Origin: a virus
IMG/VR virus record: IMGVR_UViG_3300040801_003241
Location: 1 to 21,879 of that record
Reading direction: 5' to 3' (one strand)
Length of the DNA: 21,879 nucleotides
Made by a program: the position numbers and the translations under genes. Shown piece by piece: positions 811 to 18,341 of this stretch (position 1 is its first letter; each line of letters opens with the position of its first letter). The notes beneath the pieces were generated by a model, which did no database searches, was not told the origin of the DNA, and saw only the letters and a list, made by a program, of their open reading frames with translations.

Positions 811-2760
811 TCAATCCGCCTCGCCCCAGCGTGCGCCAGTCTTCCCATCCACAAGGATCGGGACGCGCAAGGACGGAACGCAGTTCTGCATGATATGCAC
901 CATCTCGACCCACGCCGGACGGTTCGGGTCCCCGAGGTCATCGAAGTCGAGCTCATCATGGACGGTCAGGAGCGGGATGCCGGTATCATCGAAGATGCCC
1001 GCTTCATAGCAGTCCACCATCGCCTTCTTCATGATATCGGCCGCGCCTCCTTGCAGGCGGCGGTTTAGCGCCTTATGCGTGAACGCCCGCTTGATCTTCC
1101 CGTATTTCATCAGGGCTTGGTCGAAGGGAAGGGCCGGGGCCTCGCGATCATACTTCGCGGTAGTCCACATAGGGAAGTCCGAGTATCGCCCAAGGATCGT
1201 GCGGATGTACCCGTTCTTCTCGGCCTCATCGCTGGCGGAGCGAGCCGTTGCCCGGGCGAAGGGGACCGCGGTGTGGTAGGCATCGAAAAGGCTCGATCCG
1301 TCCGTCTCCTTGAGGCCGAGGCGGCGGATGAGCTCTGCTTGGCTCATCCCGTAAATGAGGCCGAAGTTGATGGTCTTCGCCGCCCGCCGCTCCAGCTCGA
1401 TCCCGACCATGGAATGCAGGAGGTCAATCGTGGCTTCGTGATAGTCCGTGTCAGGGCTGGCATTGTAGCGCGCTCGAACCTCGTCCGCCCCTTGGCCGAC
1501 AGCATGGTGGGCCAACAGGCGGTACTCAATCTGGGAGTAGTCGTATTTCCGCCAAAGCCCTTGCGCCACGAAGAGGTTACGGATGAGGCGCCCGAGCTCC
1601 GTCCGCACCGGGATGTTCTGGAGGTTCGGGTCCGAGCTGGCGAAGCGTCCGGACCGCGCCCCGTTCTCGTCGCCCTTGAGCGGATGGAACTGGCAGTGGA
1701 CGCGCCCGTTGATCTGGTTCTTGAGGATGTAGCTTTCGATGAAAGTGCCACGGATCTTCTCGCGCCGGCGTATCTCCAGGATGGTCTGAGGGAGCCAGTG
1801 ATCGAGCTTTTCGAGCGCAGCGGCAGGGAAGGTCGGGTTGCCCCTTGCGGTCTGGCCGAAAGGGAGCCCCTCTTGCGTGAACGCCTTGACCATGCTCTCG
1901 GAGGCCGAGGGGTTGACCTCGAACCCAAGTCGCCGCTTTAGATCGATCTGGAGTTCCTTGATCTCGCCGGCGAGCCTATCGTGAAGCTCCTCCGCCGCGG
2001 CGACGTCTACGGGCGCGCCCTTCCAACGCATCTTTAGCAGGAGCGGGAATAGGCGGCATTCAAGTTTGAAGAGGTCGAGGACCCCACGCTTCTCCATCTG
2101 CGCCCATTGGCGCGTCATGATCTGGATCGGCAAACGGGCGTCGGCTTCGCCGTAGGGTCCGACAAGTCGAGGCGGGGCGCGGTAGATATTGGCACGCTGT
2201 CGATCTGTGGGCCCGCCGCCGTAGAAGTCCGCGCACCATTGATAAAGGATCGAGGTCTCCTTGCCGATGCCGAGATACTTCTCGGCGAGGGAGTCAAGGG
2301 AGACGTCCGGGGCCTCGCTGTTGAGCAGCGCCTCGGCGCTCTGGATGTCGTAAAGCGGCCCGTTGACGTGGATATCCTCGGTCAGAAGCCAACCCAGGTC
2401 GTAAACAAGGTTTGCCCCGATCTTCGGCATAGGCAGGGCGAGCAGCTGGCGAAGCCACGCAAGCGCCGCCGCGGTGTCGGGCATATTCCATTCGCGCTCG
2501 ACTTCGTGGCGAAGCGGGAAATACCAAGAATGCCCCGAAGGGACCGCAACGGAGAAGCCGACAATATGGCCCTTCCCTCGGCCCCATCCCGGCCCCTCGT
2601 TGCGAAGCTCCGGGTCATAGGTCTCGGTGTCGATAGCGATGGCCGAGGCTTGCGAGAGGTCCGGGAAGTAGCTTGGCGGGGCCCATCCCGTGTCCGGGAT
2701 CGGCGGCTGCACGCGCACAGTATTGCGCGTCCCGGTGCTCGGGCGATCCTCCCAGAACAT
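811..2760 (-). CDS. Family A DNA polymerase (Pol I-like) with 3'-5' exonuclease
   Basis: 649 residues from the ATG at 2760. The N-terminal 3'-5' exonuclease domain has all three motifs: Exo I IDTET (D44, E46), Exo II NLVYDLG (D121), Exo III YGEAD (Y203, D207). The polymerase domain has motif A KYDYSQIEYR (D407), motif B RRAAKTINFGLIYG (R459, K462, F466, Y470) and motif C VHDE (H601-E603), so both activities look intact. There is no 5'-3' nuclease domain, as usual for phage enzymes. Start: the frame stays open to 2832, overlapping the clamp gene. A TTG at 2781, overlapping the clamp stop with TAGGA 8 bases upstream, is a plausible alternative that adds seven residues. It is the replicative polymerase, next to a putative clamp and downstream of the DNA-modification genes. 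Confidence 0.96.
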   Translation of the reverse strand: MFWEDRPSTGTRNTVRVQPPIPDTGWAPPSYFPDLSQASAIAIDTETYDPELRNEGPGWGRGKGHIVGFSVAVPSGHSWYFPLRHEVEREWNMPDTAAALAWLRQLLALPMPKIGANLVYDLGWLLTEDIHVNGPLYDIQSAEALLNSEAPDVSLDSLAEKYLGIGKETSILYQWCADFYGGGPTDRQRANIYRAPPRLVGPYGEADARLPIQIMTRQWAQMEKRGVLDLFKLECRLFPLLLKMRWKGAPVDVAAAEELHDRLAGEIKELQIDLKRRLGFEVNPSASESMVKAFTQEGLPFGQTARGNPTFPAAALEKLDHWLPQTILEIRRREKIRGTFIESYILKNQINGRVHCQFHPLKGDENGARSGRFASSDPNLQNIPVRTELGRLIRNLFVAQGLWRKYDYSQIEYRLLAHHAVGQGADEVRARYNASPDTDYHEATIDLLHSMVGIELERRAAKTINFGLIYGMSQAELIRRLGLKETDGSSLFDAYHTAVPFARATARSASDEAEKNGYIRTILGRYSDFPMWTTAKYDREAPALPFDQALMKYGKIKRAFTHKALNRRLQGGAADIMKKAMVDCYEAGIFDDTGIPLLTVHDELDFDDLGDPNRPAWVEMVHIMQNCVPSLRVPILVDGKTGARWGEAD

Positions 2761-2777
2761 CCCGATGGCGTCGAACC

Positions 2778-3740
2778 TCAATGCGTCATTCCTACCATCG
2801 CTCCGCGCAGCCCTTCGCCGTAGAAGATACAAGGGCGTGGGTACATGCCGAAGTCGATCCGGTCAGCAACAGCGAGGACCAGCTGTAGCTGCCCGACGCT
2901 GAAGATAGGTCCGGCCGGGAGCCCCTCGACTTCGATATGCACGCCATCCTCCTCCGTCTGCGAGGTTGACAGCTCGTCCTCCGAGAAGTAGACCGCCGAT
3001 GAGCGGCCCTCAGTAAACGGGGAGAGCGTCTCGACGGCGTCCTTGAGGGCCGAAGGGATCGGGCCAGCCGCGTCATCCACGTTCAAGATCGAGTTTAGCT
3101 TGTCGTCCGGCCATTTATGATCGAAGAGCTGCGTGCGCAGCCATCGCCCGCCCGGGTAATGGAACGTGATGTCGCTCTCCGAGATCGAGGCGCGCTCCGG
3201 GTCCGTGCCGATCCGGGCGATCTCTTGCACCGCGAACCGCGGAAGGTTGATGCGCGGGAACTTATGCCCCGTCCACTTCTGGACCAGCACCACGTTATTG
3301 GTCGCCGTGAGCATCCCGTCCGCGAGCAGCAGGCCCATCGACCACGGGCGCGAGGCGTCCTCCGACACGAAAGGAAGCAGCTGGCCAAGCGTCGCCGCAA
3401 GCCCCTTCGGCACTTCATACTCTTCGCCCCGCGGTGCGGCGTTGTAGCCGACATCATCGAGACACGGCACGTAGGCGCGGAAGCCTCCCGACCGGATGGC
3501 CAAACGCCCGTTATCGGTCATGGACAGGGCGACGGCGTCCTTGCACGCTTCCACGGCGCGATAAAACCGCTGCGCATTCGGGTAGGCGTTCAGGTCGAGA
3601 TCGAGCGGGGCGGAGAGCGCCATGTAGCCGTTGTAGCCGGTCACACGCCCATCACATATGCGGAAATGCTCCAGTTCTGGAGCCAATGCGTTCTTCTTGA
3701 TGACACCTTGCACGAATTTGAGACTGTCTAGGATTGTCAT
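2778..3740 (-). CDS. Sliding clamp-like protein (DNA polymerase processivity factor), putative
   Basis: 320 residues, about the size of a two- to three-domain DNA clamp subunit. The N-terminus (ILDSLKFVQGVIKKN, then ICDGRVTGYNGYMAL) has the helix plus 'ligand-like' strand pattern seen in beta-clamp/PCNA domains. A second such segment occurs near residues 130-155 (WSMGLLLADGMLTATNNVVL), which matches the repeated-domain layout of clamps. The gene sits between dpdA and the polymerase in one operon; GGAG lies seven bases before its ATG and it starts two bases past the dpdA stop. This fits a processivity factor for the adjacent polymerase. The call rests on fold-like pattern and context, not a catalytic motif; an unrelated DNA-binding protein remains possible. 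Confidence 0.55.
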   Translation of the reverse strand: MTILDSLKFVQGVIKKNALAPELEHFRICDGRVTGYNGYMALSAPLDLDLNAYPNAQRFYRAVEACKDAVALSMTDNGRLAIRSGGFRAYVPCLDDVGYNAAPRGEEYEVPKGLAATLGQLLPFVSEDASRPWSMGLLLADGMLTATNNVVLVQKWTGHKFPRINLPRFAVQEIARIGTDPERASISESDITFHYPGGRWLRTQLFDHKWPDDKLNSILNVDDAAGPIPSALKDAVETLSPFTEGRSSAVYFSEDELSTSQTEEDGVHIEVEGLPAGPIFSVGQLQLVLAVADRIDFGMYPRPCIFYGEGLRGAMVGMTH

Positions 3741-3744
3741 CTTA

Positions 3745-4665
3745 TCACTCCGCGAACAGGACGGGCTGCTTGACCCGGAACGGTTTGCGCCAATGGTCGT
3801 CGCCCATGCGTTTGCCGATCTGGTCGAAGGCGAAGGCGTTGAGCGCCCATCTCGGTTTATAGTCTGTCGCCAGCTCTTCGGGCGTGAGCCCGTAGTAGCG
3901 GATCAACCCTTCGATGTAGGCGCGCGCCTCCTGTGGGTAGGTCGAGAAATGGCGCAGGAAGTCCTTGGCGCGAGGCGACCGGGCGGAGATGTCGATCTTC
4001 TGGAGGAGCTCGGGCAATTGGATAAGCCCGTTCGCCGCCGCCTGCACCCATGAGGAGCTGTCCACGGAATACCACGGGTAGCGATACATCAGGGGCAGTG
4101 CCGTCAAGCCGAAGCCGTGGACCTTCGTCTTCGCATACCCGTCCTTGTCGGTGAGGGCGTATTCCCACAGCTCGTCCAGCCACGGGCCTAGCTTCTGGTT
4201 CGGGACGGGGACCATGCCGCCGATGGTGATGTATTCGTAGTTGTCGGCGTAGTATTTCGCCAGCTCCATAGGCTCCCCGAAGTGGAAGCACGGGAGGACC
4301 GGACGCGGGAGATTGCGGCGTTCGAGATCCTGCTGGTTGCGAAACGTCGCCTCATGGTCGCCGATGGCGTCCAGCACCGATGCCATAATAACGATGTCTT
4401 GGTTCTCGGCGATGAACTCGGCATACTCCCCTATGTCGATCTCGTGGCCGAGCGTGAAGGCCGAGAAGGCGCCGCTGTCGAGGAAGACCTTGACCCCGTC
4501 CTCGCGGATCTTGCGGGTGAACTGGCCCTTCTTGATGTAGTGGTAGCTTTCCAGGTGGTGGGTCACCTGATCCCGTAGCATCTGCGCATTCGGCGGGGCT
4601 GCTCGGTAGGCGTTGGACGTCCTGCCGAAGTTGGAAGTATACAGGCCGGCGATATACACGTGCAC
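3745..4665 (-). CDS. dpdA: DpdA-like DNA guanine transglycosylase (7-deazaguanine insertion into DNA)
   Basis: 306 residues starting at GTG. It belongs to the Tgt superfamily: LDSGAFSAF (D63) matches the DSGGFQ active-site loop of tRNA-guanine transglycosylase, ASVLDAIGD supplies D99, YITIGGM (residues 145-151) matches the conserved Gly-Gly loop, HGFG follows at 183-186, and YSVDSSSW (D202) stands at the place of the catalytic aspartate nucleophile. Unlike Tgt it has only one cysteine (C126), so the CxCxxC zinc site is absent. DpdA enzymes replace guanine in duplex DNA with preQ0 or a derivative. Directly upstream are queC, folE, queD and queE, which make that base. Downstream are the clamp-like protein and the polymerase, so modification and replication are co-expressed. 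Confidence 0.9.
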   Translation of the reverse strand: MHVYIAGLYTSNFGRTSNAYRAAPPNAQMLRDQVTHHLESYHYIKKGQFTRKIREDGVKVFLDSGAFSAFTLGHEIDIGEYAEFIAENQDIVIMASVLDAIGDHEATFRNQQDLERRNLPRPVLPCFHFGEPMELAKYYADNYEYITIGGMVPVPNQKLGPWLDELWEYALTDKDGYAKTKVHGFGLTALPLMYRYPWYSVDSSSWVQAAANGLIQLPELLQKIDISARSPRAKDFLRHFSTYPQEARAYIEGLIRYYGLTPEELATDYKPRWALNAFAFDQIGKRMGDDHWRKPFRVKQPVLFAE

Positions 4666-4682
4666 GGGATCAGGTTCCTGGG

Positions 4683-5471
4683 TCAGGCGACGAGAGCTGC
4701 GATCCGGGGCAGGAAGCGTTCGACCTGCCGAGGGCCGTAGTTGTCCGTGTCGGGCAGTGCCATGAGGCCTTCGAAGTTGGCGCGCAGGACCAGCGGGTCC
4801 GGGACGCCGGCTTCCTCGAACCCCTTCGCCCGCAGGAGCGTCGCGTGGTCGTGGCCCTTCGGCGGGTATTGCCCGTCATAGGAGGTGTGCGAGAACGCGA
4901 GCGCCTCATAGCACCCGTCGAGATCGAGCGCGAGGTTGACCGTGGCCGCCTTCGTCATATGCATGAGGGGCGTATGAATCTTGAGCGGGCCGGGCGCGCC
5001 GTCCTCGCCGGTGAACGTCCCGAGGTTGATTGCGGTCTCCAGCGCCTCGATGAAGACCGACCGGCAGTCTGGGTATCCGCCAAAGTCCTCCTCACAGACC
5101 CCAGTCACGAGATTCAACGCCCCTATGCAGTAGGCGCGGTTCGCCGCGAGCGTCAGGAAGAGCTGGTTGCGCATCGGGACGAAGGTCTTCTCCAGTCCGC
5201 CCGGGAGCGAGTGGTGGTCAGCGTATTGTTCGAGCTCGTGATCCGTTGAAACGAGCGGCGACGTCCCTTTGAGGATCGGACCCACGTCAACGATCTCGTG
5301 CACGATCCCGAGGTCGCCGGCGATCTTCTTCGCCGCCTCGATCTCAGCGGAGTGGCGCTGGTTGTAGTTGAACGTGACCGCGGCGACTTCATCGAAGACG
5401 CGCAAGGCGTAGAACAGGCAGGTGGTGGAATCCTGCCCTCCTGAAAACACGACAAGGGCTTTGCGGGACAT
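4683..5471 (-). CDS. queC: QueC-like 7-cyano-7-deazaguanine (preQ0) synthase with altered zinc site
   Basis: 262 residues, an ATP-dependent amidoligase/nitrile synthase converting 7-carboxy-7-deazaguanine (CDG) to preQ0 through an amide intermediate. The PP-loop SGGQDSTT (residues 10-17) binds ATP; FNYNQRH (34-40) and TGVCEEDFGGYPDCR (123-137) are family segments. The C-terminal zinc knuckle is degenerate: in the usual pattern CYxG...CGxCxxCxxR the four cysteines are replaced by S197, K205, D208 and T211, while the framing residues Y198, G200, G206, R214 and F218 remain. The ribosome binding site TAGGAG overlaps the folE stop, followed by ACCACCATG. The gene lies between folE and dpdA. Family assignment is firm; retention of the full two-step reaction is uncertain. 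Confidence 0.92.
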   Translation of the reverse strand: MSRKALVVFSGGQDSTTCLFYALRVFDEVAAVTFNYNQRHSAEIEAAKKIAGDLGIVHEIVDVGPILKGTSPLVSTDHELEQYADHHSLPGGLEKTFVPMRNQLFLTLAANRAYCIGALNLVTGVCEEDFGGYPDCRSVFIEALETAINLGTFTGEDGAPGPLKIHTPLMHMTKAATVNLALDLDGCYEALAFSHTSYDGQYPPKGHDHATLLRAKGFEEAGVPDPLVLRANFEGLMALPDTDNYGPRQVERFLPRIAALVA

Positions 5472-5480
5472 GGTGGTCTC

Positions 5481-6062
5481 CTATGCTGCAAGTTTCATGA
5501 ATTCCTCGCGAGCGGCGAGGTCGTCCCGGAAGACTCCGTGTAGGGCGCACGTCACGGTATGGTGCCCCTGCTGGCAAATCCCCCGGCTCTCCATGCACAT
5601 GTGCCGCGCACGGATAATGACGCCGACGCCGCGCGGAGCGAGGTGCTCCCACAGGGCGTCCGCGATCTGCTGCGTCATTCGCTCCTGCACTTGCAGGCGG
5701 CGCGCATACATATCGACCACTCGCGACAGCTTCGAGAGGCCGACCACGCGCCCCTGTGGGATATAGGCGACCGAGGCCGTCCCGAAGATGTCGGCAAGGT
5801 GGTGCTCGCATTTCGAGTAGACGGGGATGTCCCGGACCAGCACCATCTGGTCATAGCGTTCCCCTCCGTCTTCGAAGGTCTTGAGGACCGAGGCAGGGTC
5901 CTGCCCATACCCCGAGGTCCAGTGATCCCACGCCTTGGCAACCCTCGCCGGGGTCTCGCGCAGACCCTCACGCAGACCTGAGGAGTGGTTTTGATGTTCG
6001 AGCTGAAACAGCAGCTCGTTGATCTTGCTTGCGATGATCTCGCGGCGACGTATGCGATCCAT
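5481..6062 (-). CDS. folE: GTP cyclohydrolase I
   Basis: 193 residues. It converts GTP to dihydroneopterin triphosphate, the first step toward preQ0. The zinc-binding CEHH motif (C85, H88) and the later RHMCMESRG (C156) are present, as are GLSKLSRVVDMYARRLQ (108-124) and the C-terminal LHGVFRD. The open frame extends upstream to 6326, but that part reads through queD; the ATG at 6062 gives a family-length protein and shares one base with the queD stop (TGATG), showing translational coupling. In a phage next to queD, queE, queC and dpdA it supplies 7-deazaguanine synthesis rather than folate. No key residue is missing. Confidence 0.96.
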   Translation of the reverse strand: MDRIRRREIIASKINELLFQLEHQNHSSGLREGLRETPARVAKAWDHWTSGYGQDPASVLKTFEDGGERYDQMVLVRDIPVYSKCEHHLADIFGTASVAYIPQGRVVGLSKLSRVVDMYARRLQVQERMTQQIADALWEHLAPRGVGVIIRARHMCMESRGICQQGHHTVTCALHGVFRDDLAAREEFMKLAA

Positions 6063-6583
6063 CAGCGGGGTCCTTTCAGCAGGGTTGGGCGCGGCGGGGG
6101 CTCGTTCCCCGGATCGGCCTTGATCTTGATGGTCTGCGGGCGGAAGTAGGTCGCTGAGTTGGCCCCGTGTTCCCTGACCGTGACGTGGTGCATCCGGACG
6201 CGCGGGGCATACCCGTTGTCCTTGAGCCAGATCTCGGCCGCCTCGAAAATAAGGTGGGCGAAGGCCTCGCAGCCAAGGGCCGGCAGGACGACAACGTCTG
6301 CGACGCCCATACCCGCAAGCGAGCACAGGAGGTCCTTCTCGGGGTCGTCCTCAGCGACCAGGAGCTTGTGGTCGAAGGCGTCTTCCAGCATTCCCTTCAA
6401 GGACTTGAGGGAGCCGAAGTCGACCACCCAGTTGCGAGCGTCCAGCTCGTCCGCCTCGAATTCAAGGTGGATCGAGAGGGCGTAGCCGTGGATGTAGCGA
6501 CAATGGCTGTCCGCGCGCCATTGGCGAAACGCCGCCGAGAGTCCAATCTCGTGGCCGTAGGTCTTCGAAGAACGATAAGGCAT
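6062..6583 (-). CDS. queD: QueD-like 6-carboxytetrahydropterin synthase, variant zinc site
   Basis: 173 residues. QueD converts dihydroneopterin triphosphate to 6-carboxy-tetrahydropterin, step two of preQ0 synthesis. The catalytic cysteine is kept in CRYIHGY (C28), and FDHK (around residue 90) and VREHG near the C-terminus match the catalytic Asp/His and substrate-binding Glu regions. Two of the three usual zinc histidines are replaced: the AAH histidine by Phe (SAAF, F19) and the second His of HGH by Tyr (HGY, Y34); H32 remains, and H11 and H27 are possible substitutes. The segment FRQWRADSHCRYIHGYAL recalls a divergent QueD branch I associate with phages and marine alphaproteobacteria. It shares single bases with queE upstream and folE downstream (TGATG at both junctions). 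Confidence 0.9.
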   Translation of the reverse strand: MPYRSSKTYGHEIGLSAAFRQWRADSHCRYIHGYALSIHLEFEADELDARNWVVDFGSLKSLKGMLEDAFDHKLLVAEDDPEKDLLCSLAGMGVADVVVLPALGCEAFAHLIFEAAEIWLKDNGYAPRVRMHHVTVREHGANSATYFRPQTIKIKADPGNEPPPRPTLLKGPR

Positions 6584-7317
6584 CAGGGAAGCTCCGCATA
6601 CTTGTGCATCTGGAGGCAGAGGCGACGCCGACCGCGGTCGAGCATCAATGCCGACTTGACCGCCTGCGCCATATTCTGCTGGTTGCTGTAAAAGTCCTTC
6701 TCGTCCGCAGGTTGGACGAAGATATCGCCCCGGAACGCCGCTGGCGGGCGGGCGACGCGCTCGTGTTTCGGCACGGGGTGGTCAAGGGCGTGAATGGGGA
6801 GGCCGTCTTCGTCCACGTCGCCTGCCCGCACAACGTATTTGAAGGCGGAGGCGAGCTCGCCATATTCCTCGCGAAGCTTGTGGGTCTTCGGGGAGACAAC
6901 GATGGAGACAAAGCCCTCGCCCACAAGGCCGCGGATCTTGTCGACCGCTTGGATCGGAAGCATCCCGTTGGTTTCGACTTGCGAGTGCATCCCGAGGACG
7001 CGCAGCAGCTCCTCCATGAGCTGGGACAGGTTCTGGCGGAAGGGCTCGCCACCCGTGATCACGGCGAGACTTACGCCCGGGACGCGACGCATGGCTACCT
7101 CGTCCACGATCTGCTTGACGGTCAGGGCTCCGAGACCATTCTGCGTGTATTCGGTATCGCAGAGCGGGCACTGCAGGTTGCAGTCGAGCAGGCGGATGAA
7201 GACCGCAGGGCATCCTGCGAAAGGGCCTTCGCCTTGGATCGTGGGGAAGATCGAGTGGACGTCTAGCGTGCGCCCATCAGACTGCACGGGCGGCCTTGGC
7301 CGCTGTTGGTTTTTCAT
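6583..7317 (-). CDS. queE: QueE-like radical SAM 7-carboxy-7-deazaguanine synthase
   Basis: 244 residues. QueE contracts the pterin ring to form CDG, the step that creates the 7-deazaguanine skeleton. The N-terminal family signature SIFPTIQGEGPFAG (22-35) is followed by the radical SAM [4Fe-4S] motif CNLQCPLC (C46, C50, C53; CX3CX2C) and the SAM-binding GGEP (89-92). VETNG (about 115-119) and VSPK are also family-like. GGAGGA lies seven bases before the ATG. It is the first enzyme gene of the cassette, about 100 bases after a small conserved gene that heads the operon. All cluster ligands are present, so it should be active. Confidence 0.93.
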   Translation of the reverse strand: MKNQQRPRPPVQSDGRTLDVHSIFPTIQGEGPFAGCPAVFIRLLDCNLQCPLCDTEYTQNGLGALTVKQIVDEVAMRRVPGVSLAVITGGEPFRQNLSQLMEELLRVLGMHSQVETNGMLPIQAVDKIRGLVGEGFVSIVVSPKTHKLREEYGELASAFKYVVRAGDVDEDGLPIHALDHPVPKHERVARPPAAFRGDIFVQPADEKDFYSNQQNMAQAVKSALMLDRGRRRLCLQMHKYAELP

Positions 7318-7419: not shown

Positions 7420-7764
7420 TTACTCCGCCGCTTCGGCAGGAGCCGGCGCGGACTTCGCCTTCTCCTCTTCCTTGTGCTTCCGGAGCGTCGCCCCGTCGAG
7501 CCCGTAGAACGTGCACCACTTGCCATACTGGGTGGCGATGGTGCCCTTCTCCAGCCCGGCCGCGGTCGCCGCGTGCATGACCTCGTCCCGGAAAGCCGGG
7601 CGGCCCTTCTCGGCGGCGATCTGGTCGGCGATGGTCCAGACGGCGCGGGTCTTCGTCCCGTCCTTCGGCATCGTCACCCCGTTCTTGCGGGGCATCTTGA
7701 TCTTCTCTTCCTTCGGCGCGGCGGGCGCTTCGCCCTCGGCGGCTTCGGGTTTCGTCTTGGCCAT
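7420..7764 (-). CDS. Small phage protein with VW-I-D...TQYxKW domain, possible regulator
   Basis: 114 residues from the ATG at 7764, which is preceded by AAGGAGG. The N-terminus and C-terminus are charged and Ala/Glu/Lys/Pro-rich, probably disordered. The core (about residues 40-88) reads VWTIADQ..., R..EV..A...G, then GTIATQYGKW. The same pattern appears in the C-terminal half of the divergently transcribed protein at 7969-8403, so the two are paralogous over about 50 residues. I recall this domain as common and uncharacterised in phage small proteins; its predicted helical pattern could be a winged-helix or HTH-like fold. It is the first gene of the modification operon, so an early regulatory or DNA-binding role is possible but unproven. 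Confidence 0.82.
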   Translation of the reverse strand: MAKTKPEAAEGEAPAAPKEEKIKMPRKNGVTMPKDGTKTRAVWTIADQIAAEKGRPAFRDEVMHAATAAGLEKGTIATQYGKWCTFYGLDGATLRKHKEEEKAKSAPAPAEAAE

Positions 7765-7807
7765 GGTGCTGCCTCCTTCTGGCAATGGGTGTGAGCGTAG
7801 CAAAGCG

Positions 7808-7930: not shown

Positions 7931-7968
7931 ACTCGTATCGGAAGCACACGGGAAGAAGGAACCCAGCC

Positions 7969-8403
7969 ATGACCACCAAGTTCTACAGCACGAAAGCCAA
8001 CGCCAAGCGCGCCCTCAAGGTTGCTCTCGCGAAGATCGACCTCACGCCCGAAGACGTGGCGTTCCAGATCGACGGCGAGGACGGGCAATACTTCGTCCAC
8101 CTCACGTTCGACGCCGCCGAAGTCCCCGATGGCATCGAGACGCTCGAAGGCTTCAACGTCGAGCTTGTGGGCGAGGACGCCCCCGCCCCGGCGAAGAAGT
8201 CGGCCTACATTCGCGAGGTCTCGGACCATGGCGGCGTCTGCGCCGAGGTCTGGGGCATCTGCGACGAGATGCAGGCCGAGGCGGACGAGGCGGGGGAGAA
8301 GCTCTCGCGCAAGGCCGTGATCGAAGCCTGCCGGCAGCAGGGCATCGCCTTCGGGACTGCCCGGACCCAGTACCAGAAGTGGAAGACGAAGCGGGGCGCC
8401 TGA
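7969..8403 (+). CDS. Phage protein with TQYxKW domain, paralogue of divergent neighbour
   Basis: 144 residues. The ATG at 7969 has AAGGA nine bases upstream. Residues 1-70 form an alpha/beta segment (TKANAKRALKVALAKIDL, then QYFVHLTFDAAEV) that resembles small single-domain phage proteins. Residues 85-140 carry the domain shared with the protein at 7420-7764: EVWGICDEM, R..VIEA....G, GTARTQYQKW. The fused N-terminal segment is therefore what distinguishes the two copies. It has its own promoter and a strong hairpin terminator directly after its stop, so it forms a single-gene unit. Function is unknown; binding to nucleic acid is a guess from the helical shared domain. Confidence 0.85.
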   Translation: MTTKFYSTKANAKRALKVALAKIDLTPEDVAFQIDGEDGQYFVHLTFDAAEVPDGIETLEGFNVELVGEDAPAPAKKSAYIREVSDHGGVCAEVWGICDEMQAEADEAGEKLSRKAVIEACRQQGIAFGTARTQYQKWKTKRGA

Positions 8404-14789: not shown

Positions 14790-17141
14790 ATGGCGAACCC
14801 GAGACTCAGCCAAGTATCTCGCCTGCCCCAGGAGCTACGGGAGCGGAAGCAGTGGGCGATCTCGACCCTGCTTCCTCATCCGGTCACGGGGAAGCCCGAT
14901 AAGGCCCCGCGCCACCCACAGACGGGCCGCCTGCTCGACCTGACCAATCCTGAGATGTTTTCGACGTTCGATGAATGCATCAACTCGCCCCATGCGAACG
15001 CCATCGGATTCATCCTGACCGCGGACGACCCTTACTGCATCGTAGATCTCGACCGTCCGGCGAACCTCACGCCGCAGGACGCCAAGGCGCAGGAAAACGC
15101 CTACAACCATCTCGACAGCTACAGCGAATTCTCGCAGTCCGGGCAGGGCGTCCATATCATCGTCCGCGCGAAGATCGGCGGCGGGCGTCGGCGCGGTCCC
15201 ATCGAAGTTTACGACCAAGAACGCTATATGATCTGCACGGGCAACGTCTTCCGGGACAGTCCTATCGTGGAGCGGCAGGCCCTGATCGAGCAGCTGGTGC
15301 TGGAGATGATGCCCAGCGCCTCGAACCTCGGGGACCTGCCGACCTCGGAGCCGGAGACGCTCGGGGATGACGAGATCATCGCCAAGGCCGCCGCAGCGGC
15401 GAACGGCGATAAGTGGAAGCGCCTGTTCGAGGAAGGGCCCCGCCCGGGTGATGACCATTCCCAGCTCGACGCCTCGCTTGCCCAGCTCATTGCCTTCTAC
15501 ACGCTCAACCACGATCAGGCGCTGCGCCTCTTCCAACGCTCGAAGCTATGGCGACCAAACTCGAAGGGCAAGAACCCCGAGCACTACACCCAGTATTATC
15601 TGCTGGAGCGGACGTTCGGGCGCGCCTTCCGGGCCGAATTGAGACGCCGGAACGAGAAGAAGGCGGACCTAGAGGTCGGTCGCCTCGCGCAGCTGAAGGC
15701 GATGGTGACCCGCGAGATCGCCGAGCTACAGACCCAGGTAGCGCCGCCCATCGGGTCGGAAGCCTCCTTTGCCCCGCCTTTGGGACAAAGTGCTTCGAAC
15801 ACCTTATCCTTTCCGCCCGGGATCGTGGGAATGGTCGCGGACTTCATCTATAAGGCGGCCCCGCGCCCCGTCAGGGAGATCGCCCTCGCCGGCGCGCTCA
15901 CCTTCGTTTCGGGCATCGTGGGGCGGCAATTCAATATCTCGGGAACGGGCCTGAACCTCTACATCGTGATGCTGGCCGAGACCGGACGAGGCAAGGAAGC
16001 CGCCGCCTCGGGCATCGACGCCCTGATGGCCGCGCTCCGCCCCAACATGCCGATCATCGACGCCTACCGCGGACCGGGGCATATCGCATCGGGGCAGGCC
16101 CTGATCCGGACCTTGGACGAGCACCCGTCCCAGTTCTCGCTGCTGTCCGAATTCGGCCACACCTTGCAGGCGATCACGCACCCGCGCGCCAACGCCGCGG
16201 ACGTCCGGCTCCGACAGGCCCTGCTCGATCTCTTCTCGAAGTCAGGCAAGCACCAACTCCTCCAGTCGTCCGCCTACGCCGACAAGGAGAAGAACACCAA
16301 GAGCGTGCTCGCCCCGTGCTTCGCCTTCCTCGGGGATACGACACCGGAAGCCTATTATGCGGCATTCGGGTCCAGCATCGTCGCCGAGGGCCTCCTGCCC
16401 CGTTTCATCACCATCAGCTATGACGGGCCACGGGTCGAGCGCAACCCCTTCGCCAATGGCGAGCCCGATGCCGAGCTGATTGGCTGGATGCAGAACCTCG
16501 TCAGCGCCGTCGCCCAGATGTACCACAACGGTACGTTCATGGACGCCCGGGTCGATCCTGGGGCACTGTCGCTGCTGGACGCCTTCGACCGTGAGTGCGA
16601 CGCCCGCATCAACGACCGCGCGCAGGACGCCTTTGTCGAGGTCTGGAACCGCGCGCACCTCAAGGCCCTGCGGCTCGCGGCGCTAATCGCTGTGGGCTGT
16701 AATTGGCACGACCCTATCGTCTCCCCCGACCACGCGCGATGGGCCATCGACCTCATTCGGGCGGAGATCACGAACATCGTCCGCAAGACCGAGGAAGGCG
16801 AGACCGGGCAGGGCGAGGTCAAGCAGCTGCCGACCGTGATTAAGGTCGCCCGGGCCTACTACGAGACGCCCAAGGCGAAGCGGGTCAAGACCTATAACGT
16901 CGCGGAGCAGATGGCTGATTATATCCCATACCACTACCTTCGCAAGCGACTGCGGATGCATAAGGAGTTCACAGGGGACCGGCGTGGGCTGGAGTCTTCA
17001 ATCAAGGCGGCGATACAAACCGCGGTCGACCTCGGTCAGCTCCAGCAGCTGACGCCCGATCAGGTCGCTGCCATCCCGGGATCGCGCAAGGATACGAAAC
17101 TGTATGTGCTTGGTGCGGAATTCGGTAACGGCGTCTATTGA
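14790..17141 (+). CDS. Primase-helicase: prim-pol-like N-terminus with DUF3987-type ATPase
   Basis: 783 residues. The N-terminal 170 residues look like a bifunctional primase-polymerase domain: IVDLDRP (D86, D88), SQSGQGVHIIV (115-125, catalytic His) and IEVYDQERY (138-146). After a linker, residues 340-700 resemble the DUF3987 ATPase: LAETGRGKE (395-403) is a Walker A-like loop with Glu after the Lys, as I recall for this family, and SLLSEFGHTL provides the acidic Walker B-like residue. The C-terminal part is helical and may bind DNA. It should unwind and prime at the origin. The AT-rich iteron region begins at its stop codon, supporting an initiation role. GGGGGGA lies upstream of the ATG. 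Confidence 0.88.
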   Translation: MANPRLSQVSRLPQELRERKQWAISTLLPHPVTGKPDKAPRHPQTGRLLDLTNPEMFSTFDECINSPHANAIGFILTADDPYCIVDLDRPANLTPQDAKAQENAYNHLDSYSEFSQSGQGVHIIVRAKIGGGRRRGPIEVYDQERYMICTGNVFRDSPIVERQALIEQLVLEMMPSASNLGDLPTSEPETLGDDEIIAKAAAAANGDKWKRLFEEGPRPGDDHSQLDASLAQLIAFYTLNHDQALRLFQRSKLWRPNSKGKNPEHYTQYYLLERTFGRAFRAELRRRNEKKADLEVGRLAQLKAMVTREIAELQTQVAPPIGSEASFAPPLGQSASNTLSFPPGIVGMVADFIYKAAPRPVREIALAGALTFVSGIVGRQFNISGTGLNLYIVMLAETGRGKEAAASGIDALMAALRPNMPIIDAYRGPGHIASGQALIRTLDEHPSQFSLLSEFGHTLQAITHPRANAADVRLRQALLDLFSKSGKHQLLQSSAYADKEKNTKSVLAPCFAFLGDTTPEAYYAAFGSSIVAEGLLPRFITISYDGPRVERNPFANGEPDAELIGWMQNLVSAVAQMYHNGTFMDARVDPGALSLLDAFDRECDARINDRAQDAFVEVWNRAHLKALRLAALIAVGCNWHDPIVSPDHARWAIDLIRAEITNIVRKTEEGETGQGEVKQLPTVIKVARAYYETPKAKRVKTYNVAEQMADYIPYHYLRKRLRMHKEFTGDRRGLESSIKAAIQTAVDLGQLQQLTPDQVAAIPGSRKDTKLYVLGAEFGNGVY

Positions 17142-17428
17142 GTTGGATAAGCTGGAATAGATGGAATGGCCCGTCTATCTTTATAACCCCTTGAAATCGT
17201 TAAATAAACCAGCGAGATGGAAGATGGAATAAAATCTGGGGGAAAGAGAGAAAAAGACAGTATTAGTATTATGAAACTCATTCACGTGTTATATAAGCCT
17301 TTTGATCGTATATATTATTCTATCTATTCCATCTATTCCATCTTATTAAATTTCAATGGGTTAGGGACGTGTTTAGATGGAATAAAAGATGGAATTGGAA
17401 TAATGTGCGAAGTATGCGGGCTGGAATG
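17142..17428. repeat. AT-rich iteron region, candidate replication origin
   Basis: No convincing gene lies between 17142 and 17494. The stretch is strikingly AT-rich compared with the GC-rich genes on either side and carries many copies of a 9-mer near GATGGAATA. On the plus strand: GCTGGAATA (17151), GATGGAATG (17160), GATGGAATA (17223, directly after a partial GATGGAA at 17216), GATGGAATA (17376), GATGGAATT (17388) and GCTGGAATG (17420). On the opposite strand there are three tandem copies at 17316-17342. A-T-rich blocks stand between them. Repeated initiator sites plus an easily melted region beside a primase-helicase are typical of origins; the function itself is inferred. Confidence 0.68.
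17316..17342 (-). repeat. Three tandem 9-bp iterons
   Basis: TATTCTATC (17316), TATTCCATC (17325) and TATTCCATC (17334) are head-to-tail. On the minus strand each reads GATGGAATA, with one mismatch (GATAGAATA) in the first. They face the opposite way from the plus-strand copies on both sides. Confidence 0.85.
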
Positions 17429-17494
17429 CGACTAAATGGAGAATAGACCGATGTGGAAGAATCTTTCGGTTCGGTTATACGACAGGGGATCGGG

Positions 17495-17932
17495 ATGGGC
17501 GGCCTGAGTAGCAAGCGGAAGGGAGCGAACGGAGAGCGGGAAGCGGCAAAGCTCCTCGTGGAGTGGATCGCTCCGGTCTACCAGTCTCTGCAACTGGACC
17601 CGCCGACGCTTGAGCGCAACCTCATGCAGTCGAGGATGGGCGGCTTCGACCTTGTGGGCCTAGAGTGGCTCGCGCTCGAAGTCAAGCGGCAGGAGAACGT
17701 GTCGCTGCCTGCATGGTGGAGGCAGACCCTCCGGCAAGCGAACACCGAGCAGGTCCCATTCCTGCTATGGCGGCAGAACCGGACGCCGTGGCGGGCTCGG
17801 GTGCGGATCAGCTGCGCGCATGGGCGTGGGGAGCGGTGGGCCCTCGATGTGCTGGACGTCGATCTCGATGCCGACCGGGCAAGGGACTGGTTGCAGCGGG
17901 AGGCCTACTGGCGGCTCGTCCATGGGGGTTGA
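17495..17932 (+). CDS. Hjc/VRR-like PD-(D/E)XK nuclease, resolvase-like
   Basis: 145 residues from the ATG at 17495, which has AGGGGA seven bases upstream; the frame is also open from GTG 17453. The pattern KGANGEREAAK (E14), GGFDLVG (D52) and LALEVKRQE (E62, K64) is the active site of small PD-(D/E)XK enzymes such as archaeal-type Holliday junction resolvases and related phage nucleases. The following LPAWWRQTLRQA and VPFLLWRQN fit the helix and strand after the ExK motif. A role in resolving junctions or branched replication intermediates is likely from the position next to the candidate origin. An 18-codon frame (17451-17507, MWKNLSVRLY...) overlaps the start and might couple translation. 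Confidence 0.8.
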   Translation: MGGLSSKRKGANGEREAAKLLVEWIAPVYQSLQLDPPTLERNLMQSRMGGFDLVGLEWLALEVKRQENVSLPAWWRQTLRQANTEQVPFLLWRQNRTPWRARVRISCAHGRGERWALDVLDVDLDADRARDWLQREAYWRLVHGG

Positions 17933-17958
17933 AGTCAACTCAGGCGAGGGCGTAGGAT
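17929..17958 (+). promoter_or_regulatory. Promoter with palindromic -35 region for the 17979 cluster
   Basis: TTGAAG (17929-17934), 18-base spacer, TAGGAT (17953-17958), 20 bases before the ATG. The -35 box is inside TTGAAGTCAA and continues CTCA; the same TTGANNTCAACTCA...TAGGATCG layout occurs at 21315. Confidence 0.6.
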
Positions 17959-17978
17959 CGAGGCGAAAGGAGACCACC

Positions 17979-18341
17979 ATGAAACCGCGCAACTACATCG
18001 AGGGCTCGCAGCACCAACTCAAGGAGTGGGTCGAGGGCCGCCCGTGGCATAATCCGTTCACGCCGGACGGCGACTACCACGACAACCCAAGAGAGGGCGG
18101 TGAGTGCTGCCCGGACTTCTCGTGCTGCGTCCCGGACCTCCTGTGGGCGAAAGAGCGCCGCCTTGCGTTCTTTCACGCCTCACCCGACGCTCAGGAGCGC
18201 ATGATGATGGGGGCCCTCGGCGCGCTCATGGGGGCCCCGGTCGAGGCGTTCGCGCCGGGCGTCTACGTCATGCGGATCGATCAGCATATCCCGATCAGCG
18301 ATGAGGTCACCGAGCTGTTTCTCAAGGAGCCCAGACCATGA
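17979..18341 (+). CDS. Phage protein with CC...CC motif, unknown function
   Basis: 120 residues. GGAGACCACCATG sets the start; upstream reading to 17820 shadows the nuclease. After a charged N-terminus comes the segment ECCPDFSCCVPDLLWAKERR (about residues 43-62), with two Cys pairs, then AFFHASPDAQERMMMGAL and a final strand region (GVYVMRIDQHIPI). The CCPDFSCC segment is familiar from small phage proteins and may bind a metal. It has its own promoter and begins a chain of ATGA-overlapping genes up to 19685. No function is known to me. Confidence 0.85.
   Translation: MKPRNYIEGSQHQLKEWVEGRPWHNPFTPDGDYHDNPREGGECCPDFSCCVPDLLWAKERRLAFFHASPDAQERMMMGALGALMGAPVEAFAPGVYVMRIDQHIPISDEVTELFLKEPRP

Follow-up and report, generated by a model that had tools for sequence, protein, structure and literature searches.

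The 21,879-nucleotide stretch analyzed here, referred to as the window, is the whole of the virus record IMGVR_UViG_3300040801_003241 and contains five adjacent genes, queE-queD-folE-queC-dpdA, of a 7-deazaguanine DNA modification pathway. A cassette of this kind is known in phages. The new part is its versions of QueD and QueC, in which canonical zinc ligands are replaced by other conserved residues, while the catalytic motifs and the predicted fold are retained. We consider it likely that this is a phage DNA modification operon in which the two zinc-ligand-less enzymes do their usual jobs and whose product is the 2'-deoxynucleoside of 7-cyano-7-deazaguanine (dPreQ0).

In the proposed pathway, FolE would convert GTP to dihydroneopterin triphosphate, QueD would then form 6-carboxytetrahydropterin (CPH4), and QueE would produce 7-carboxy-7-deazaguanine (CDG). 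QueC would turn CDG into 7-cyano-7-deazaguanine (preQ0) through the amide intermediate 7-amido-7-deazaguanine (ADG). Finally, DpdA would exchange preQ0 for guanine in the DNA after replication, and the resulting dPreQ0 would protect against some restriction enzymes. In the window phage and in many of its relatives, QueD and QueC would perform the same steps with rebuilt sites that have no canonical zinc ligands.

QueC and QueD with altered zinc sites

QueC matched PF06508 (3.1e-55) and scored 187 bits against TIGR00364, above its cut-off. According to PMC13329287, a canonical QueC carries the motifs SGGxDS, YxQxHxxE, VPxRN, and YPDC, an essential Y189, and a C(x)8CxxCxxC zinc motif; Ala mutants of Y35, R99, Y131, and Y189 of the Escherichia coli enzyme are inactive. 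The pocket motifs of the window QueC are intact (SGGQDS, YNQRHSAE, VPMRN, and YPDC), and it retains the equivalents of all four of these residues. The zinc motif is absent, with HTSYDGQYPPKGHDHATLLR found instead, so that the four Cys columns are occupied by S, K, D, and T. The predicted model had a pLDDT (predicted local distance difference test) of 95.0, with block means of 92-96 over the replaced stretch, and aligned with Bacillus subtilis QueC (3bl5) with a Z score of 21.7 and a root mean square deviation (rmsd) of 2.8 over 187 aa. The models were monomers without metal, and Foldseek and VIA matches indicate fold, not chemistry. Compared with canonical bacterial QueC (PF06508 cluster 1), the predicted fold, the ATP loop, and the substrate-pocket residues are alike, whereas the zinc motif is replaced.

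The same replacement was found in related loci, most of which were collected in searches for sequences similar to the window QueC or QueD (the best 80 of 598 in one search and the best 80 of 190 in another), so that the counts given here describe relatives and not prevalence. All four Cys were present in 103 of the 176 loci in which QueC was matched, none in 71, and some in 2. Three of the 71 Cys-less sequences were gapped in this region, leaving 68 usable ones, the window copy and duplicates included. YxQxHxxE, SGGxDS, and Tyr at the Y189 position each occurred in all 68, VPxRN in 67, and YPDC in 66. After the window and known duplicates were dropped, zinc-less QueC was found in 61 viral loci. 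Eight named phages have this type (VPv64, PSASB_03, Pan1, ART, MMDA13, RHph_X3_2, RHEph05, and Iggy); a four-Cys QueC is present in CAjan, EC151, M39, phi38:2, BcepGomr, nt-1, CP220, and Hedgerow, the Cys of BcepGomr having been read from the alignment after a simple pattern missed them. Across 60 zinc-less sequences, Y198, G200, L213, R214, and G217 of the replaced stretch are invariant, D208, H209, P203, and P204 occur in at least 90%, and most members carry the signature HT[SA]YDGx[YF]PP. In Hutinet 2019 (PMC6884629), most phage QueCs are separated from their bacterial counterparts when a strict threshold is applied.

A QueC tree of 92 rows, built with the zinc columns removed, nested the zinc-type sequences of loci L161-L163 and L052/L087 among zinc-less ones. 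A single zinc-loss event was rejected because the tree needs at least four changes; with many forks open and several long branches, it does not settle their number or direction. L161-L163 are metagenome-assembled genome (MAG) contigs titled Proteobacteria, Cyanobacteria, and Melainabacteria, whose zinc-type QueC is 54-60% identical to that of the window and lies inside a mostly zinc-less phage group, with QueF within 2 kb. Judged from the sequences, this placement may reflect gene exchange or regain. In addition, a zinc-less QueC (HTSYDGKYPPTDMNHSNVLRAQ) occurs with QueE and a canonical QueD on a Microvirga lotononidis megaplasmid (L246), as part of a prophage or as a host gene. The QueC model also had Cap9 (Z score of 20.6) and QatC (Z score of 16.0) as structural neighbors. 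Identity as a Cap9/QatC defense protein was dropped because the neighboring genes are preQ0 genes; PADLOC matched the window protein with its QueC model only, at residues 3-64.

QueD belongs to the PTPS family (PF01242, 1.4e-17; phrog_2389, 1.3e-41). The signature of PTPS-I, to which QueD belongs, is given as CxxxHGH (PMC5041015). The window protein has CxxxHGY instead, with F at the first zinc-His position, a reading with which a profile alignment with E. coli QueD (4ntm) agrees. Two of the three zinc histidines are lost; an SHC block is present, and C28, D71, H72, and E138 are retained, which we take to be the catalytic Cys, the Asp-His pair, and the Glu of the E. coli enzyme. The model (pLDDT of 95.3) is a T-fold carrying these residues and aligned with E. 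coli QueD (4ntn) with a Z score of 14.1 and an rmsd of 1.7 over 114 aa. Like QueC, QueD resembles its canonical bacterial counterpart in predicted fold and catalytic residues but has its zinc motif replaced.

This variant was highly uniform. Among 128 variant-QueD loci (above 80 bits, duplicates included), HC and HGY were present in all, the first zinc-His position was F in 82 and Y in 46, and the Asp-His pair matched the pattern in 119. The residue after the late Glu was His in 87 and another residue in 5, the pattern being unmatched in 36. An alignment of 71 sequences contained 25 invariant columns, including C28, H27, Y34, D71, H72, and E138. Of 22 canonical viral QueDs examined as a control, 18 could be parsed, every one with H, KC, and HGH; the other 4 were unmatched by the pattern.

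Since metal ligands that are usually treated as essential are gone, QueD or QueC might be decaying or nonfunctional, with the host supplying preQ0 or its precursors; phages with DpdA alone are indeed known (PMC8306585). However, decay would not be expected to leave replacement residues conserved like catalytic ones, as seen for the HC and HGY blocks of QueD and the invariant columns of QueC, and we regard this explanation as highly improbable.

The genomic context suggests that the variants do the same jobs as the canonical enzymes. In the stretches fetched for 152 viral loci (duplicates dropped), 122 had only a variant QueD, 22 only a canonical one, 8 neither, and none both. The two types share one operon slot and were never found together in these stretches: among the 48 loci that could be ordered besides the window, the order E-C-D-F-A was found with the variant in 29 and with the canonical type in 15. 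Zinc-less QueC was paired with variant QueD in 44 cases and with canonical QueD in 17; zinc-type QueC was paired with the variant in 13, with the canonical type in 5, and with no QueD in 5, and QueC was partial in 2. According to Hutinet 2019, phage QueD clusters with bacterial homologues in a network and was hence taken as isofunctional; the portions of that article consulted here contain no mention of the metal residues (PMC6884629).

The QueD variant is not confined to phages: a phage-only distribution was rejected because the variant is also present in a bacterial MAG (L240) and on two bacterial plasmids (L244 and L247). An Aminobacter plasmid carries a variant QueD flanked by queE and a zinc-type queC, and no match to the window DpdA was found in the 10 kb fetched. 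On the Rhizobium rhizogenes plasmid pC6.5b (L247), an HGY QueD lies near folE and a condensation-domain gene, without a QueC, QueE, or DpdA match in the stretch fetched. A PTPS-family gene next to nonribosomal peptide synthetase and short-chain dehydrogenase/reductase genes on a Streptomyces californicus plasmid (L245, 5001-5387) has CHR..GKC..HGY, with the first zinc His retained and the third altered; it may represent an intermediate form that serves secondary metabolism. Stenotrophomonas phage Mendera (L075) has an HGY QueD but no annotated QueC, QueE, FolE, or DpdA within 5 kb. Three further loci (L004, L005, and L039) have zinc-less QueC and HGY QueD; FolE and QueE are matched only weakly there and DpdA not at all in the flanking regions, and these loci may use another transglycosylase.

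FolE, QueE, DpdA, and a possible zinc-sparing route

FolE matched PF01227 (3.5e-66) and scored 204 bits against TIGR00063, above the cut-off. Its zinc ligands are intact, with CEHH fitting the CxHH pattern and CMESRG supplying the distal Cys, and the same was true for 97 of 97 viral relatives scoring at least 90 bits. The absence of zinc motifs elsewhere is therefore not an artifact of the pattern search. QueE matched phrog_2076 (3.9e-41) and the radical SAM family PF04055 (8.1e-9) and stayed under all listed NCBIfam equivalog cut-offs; it has the radical SAM Cx3Cx2C motif as CNLQCPLC and is 43% identical to QueE of Escherichia phage CAjan.

DpdA matched phrog_887 (1e-64), with no Pfam match at an E value of 0.001. 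It shares 43% identity with CAjan DpdA, and both catalytic-Asp blocks are intact (FLDSGAFSAF and YSVDSSSW). Bacterial tRNA-guanine transglycosylase (TGT) has a CxCxxC zinc motif. The window DpdA has a single Cys and no such motif, which is absent as well from all 51 related phage DpdAs examined, that of CAjan included, and from all 8 DpdA3-like proteins. Because CAjan DpdA lacks it too, this absence, unlike those in QueC and QueD, is shared with a phage of measured modification. A tblastn search with the window DpdA matched 228 of 50,697 phage records, all below 60% identity. Where a window-type DpdA was present and the QueC columns were filled, both rebuilt QueC and rebuilt QueD occurred in 28 of 50 loci.

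The zinc-dependent steps of bacterial queuosine synthesis are those of FolE1, QueD, QueC, and TGT (PMC9508795). We tentatively propose, as a possibility that we consider less likely than not, that three of these four were rebuilt in the phage lineage to work without canonical zinc ligands. If so, the HGY QueD, in which an invariant His adjoins the catalytic Cys and a Tyr replaces a zinc His, would be a CPH4 synthase that is metal-free or differently metallated, and the window-type QueC would synthesize preQ0 without a structural zinc. The new conserved His and Asp residues could also bind a metal, as the loss of canonical ligands does not prove that metal is absent. Conserved phage versions of two textbook zinc enzymes would permit a direct test of the need for zinc, and annotation pipelines would gain two signatures, the HGY block of QueD and HT[SA]YDGx[YF]PP of QueC. 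They would also raise the question of what use a low-zinc base modification pathway is to a phage. Among the matches listed in the openly licensed literature, subscription journals being outside this scope, no title or abstract dealt with a phage QueC lacking the zinc Cys or with a QueD of the HGY type.

The predicted product and the closest known systems

As described in Hutinet 2019 (PMC6884629), dPreQ0 is the product of the minimal FolE-QueD-QueE-QueC-DpdA set in CAjan and Rosebush, and CAjan loses the modification when dpdA is deleted. A sequence-only reading of the window had proposed a complete preQ0 pathway with dPreQ0 as the simplest product. The gene identities and the DpdA type bear this out, but QueD and QueC fail the canonical metal motifs, and hence the completeness of the pathway and its product are inferred. 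By analogy, dPreQ0 is still the best single guess and the likely product, although the phages in which it was measured have canonical zinc residues.

The same reading had found no QueF or amidotransferase fusion, and this held. The only scanned protein matched by the QueF profile was FolE, below the cut-off, and the window QueC covers positions 144-382 of the 418-position phrog_1550 profile and thus has no Gat domain. A wider search gave no separate copy of either in 10 related records, 16-75 kb in length, which are possibly incomplete and in which ArcS was not part of the search: every QueF-profile match lies in folE (above the QueF cut-off in two of the ten), and every phrog_10428 match is to the QueC part only. 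No QueF was seen in the two loci with the gene order of the window (L007 and L046).

These results bear on the possibility that preQ0 is only an intermediate and that QueF, an amidotransferase, or another gene outside the fragment leads to dPreQ1, dG+, or some derivative beyond these. The record itself is probably incomplete, and related cassettes carry a QueF or QueF-like gene (Pan1 and MMDA13). Nine contigs have a same-strand QueF within 1.6 kb of a zinc-less QueC, with the Cys and Asp of FTSLCPxTGQPD retained, presumably the functional residues. However, eight of these nine loci carry a different, DpdA3-like transglycosylase and the ninth has none in reach. Together with the lack of a separate gene in the related records, this makes a further derivative improbable.

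The nine contigs also address a change of product within the cassette itself, in which the rebuilt QueC would stop at the amide, giving dADG, or the rebuilt QueD would act on CDG to yield another 7-deazaguanine, with the host filling the missing step. As would be expected of a changed enzyme, the zinc-ligand loss is both complete and conserved, and a 2023 study by Cui reportedly describes further 7-deazaguanine bases in phages as well as a decarboxylase for CDG. QueC is reported to make ADG en route to preQ0 (PMC13329287). On the other hand, the substrate of QueF is preQ0, a nitrile, so a zinc-less QueC encoded near QueF should make preQ0, unless the host does. The pocket residues essential in E. 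coli QueC are retained, and no locus among the 152 had a second, canonical QueD in the stretch fetched. A changed product is thus rather unlikely.

Several points weigh against dPreQ0 synthesis by zinc-ligand-less QueD and QueC. QueD scored 42.7 bits against the QueD equivalog TIGR03367, for which the cut-off is 89.25, and lacks the canonical PTPS-I motif. Both QueC and QueD are of the zinc type in CAjan and in Hedgerow, the latter standing in for Rosebush of the same species in residue comparisons. The dPreQ0 call for the window thus depends on enzymes whose metal sites are different, and the same analogy with enzymes of another type underlies dPreQ0 calls for Iggy-like phages. We found no chemical data for any phage with both variant enzymes, and none are known for this phage. 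The DNA of AA17, which is closely related to Iggy, was resistant to 8 of the 16 restriction enzymes tried; in the same test, however, two Pbunavirus phages were resistant to ten and seven, which makes this resistance weak evidence (PMC11945000). The record is probably fragmentary, the loci were gathered mostly by similarity, and host enzymes could supply missing steps. As to protection, plasmids containing dPreQ0 at a low level remained sensitive to EcoRI in Hutinet 2019 (PMC6884629).

Among known systems, Pseudomonas phage Iggy (Iggyvirus, MN029011) likewise encodes QueE, QueC, QueD, FolE, and DpdA, followed by a clamp and a polymerase, and also has a zinc-less QueC and an HGY QueD. Identities with the window proteins are 42% (QueE), 50% (QueC), 62% (QueD), 64% (FolE), and 44% (DpdA). 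Iggy differs in its QueC replacement block, YPPTKNNHSNLLRAQ, and in its order, E-C-D-F-A with small open reading frames (ORFs) between the genes, compared with E-D-F-C-A in the window. CAjan, in which dPreQ0 was measured, has the same five activities, the same DpdA family, and a clamp downstream; unlike the window, it has a four-Cys QueC, a canonical QueD (His and HGH), an annotated preQ0 transporter, and another gene order. Hedgerow, of the Mycobacterium phage Rosebush species, has the minimal five-gene set as in the window, and dPreQ0 was measured in Rosebush (PMC6884629), but its DpdA is distant (31%), its QueC and QueD have canonical zinc residues, and its order is different. Pseudanabaena phage Pan1 (Nanhaivirus) shares the zinc-less QueC and HGY QueD with the window but has QueF and a different, longer transglycosylase.

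Gene layout and neighboring replication genes

The coordinates, order, and overlaps of the minus-strand series at 3745-7317, as first read from the sequence, proved correct in the ORF listing and in family scans with Pfam, PHROG, and NCBIfam profiles with equivalog cut-offs (Table 1). Five adjacent same-strand genes of a single pathway, matched at such E values, are not a matter of chance. The queE/queD and queD/folE junctions share one base each (TGATG), and gaps of 9, 17, and 4 nt separate folE from queC, queC from dpdA, and dpdA from the clamp gene. The folE gene starts at the ATG at 6062, overlapping the queD stop, and the listed ORF from 6326 is over-long. The polymerase gene has a TTG start at 2832 that overlaps the clamp gene; its first internal ATG is at 2760.

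Table 1. Genes of the modification cassette and the adjoining replication genes in the window
Feature	Position	Strand	Details
queE-like radical SAM gene (CDG synthase)	6583..7317	-	244 aa; phrog_2076, PF04055
queD-like gene (CPH4 synthase family), variant metal site	6062..6583	-	173 aa; PF01242, phrog_2389
folE (GTP cyclohydrolase I)	5481..6062	-	193 aa; PF01227, TIGR00063
queC (preQ0 synthase family), no Gat domain	4683..5471	-	262 aa; PF06508, TIGR00364
dpdA (DNA guanine transglycosylase)	3745..4665	-	306 aa; phrog_887
DNA polymerase processivity factor (clamp), same gene series	2778..3740	-	phrog_947 3.8e-63
Family A DNA polymerase (PolA)	811..2832	-	PF00476 1.2e-63, phrog_17 3.4e-99

Besides the window, 48 loci could be ordered, with FolE, QueC, and DpdA all placeable. 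DpdA was followed by the clamp in 40 of these, and in seven of the remaining eight nothing was matched after DpdA. The full order E-D-F-C-A-clamp-PolA recurs in two loci, L007 and L046. This adjacency supports, but does not prove, that the cassette may be expressed together with the replication genes. Modification soon after replication and protection from restriction are reasonable inferences for this phage.

The 21,879-base record is probably a fragment of a genome. The surrounding phage replication genes encode a helicase, a Cas4-like exonuclease, RNase H, a single-stranded DNA-binding protein, Sak4, a primase, and a RusA-like protein, and several further ORFs had no match or matched unknown families only. 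The polymerase scored 276 bits against the NCBIfam model of DpoZ, an aminoadenine-incorporating polymerase, for which the cut-off is 500, and 286 bits against generic DNA polymerase I. DpoZ identity was therefore dropped. Just upstream of queE, at 7420-7803 (minus strand) and 7966-8403 (plus strand), lie genes for two small proteins matching the same unknown families, phrog_18634 and phrog_7864; by sequence they look like paralogues and are possibly regulators of the divergent transcripts. Finally, the step at 17001-18000, which spans the end of the primase gene and the RusA-like gene, has a GC content of 0.55, compared with 0.60-0.67 in the other 1-kb steps, and a GC skew of +0.18.

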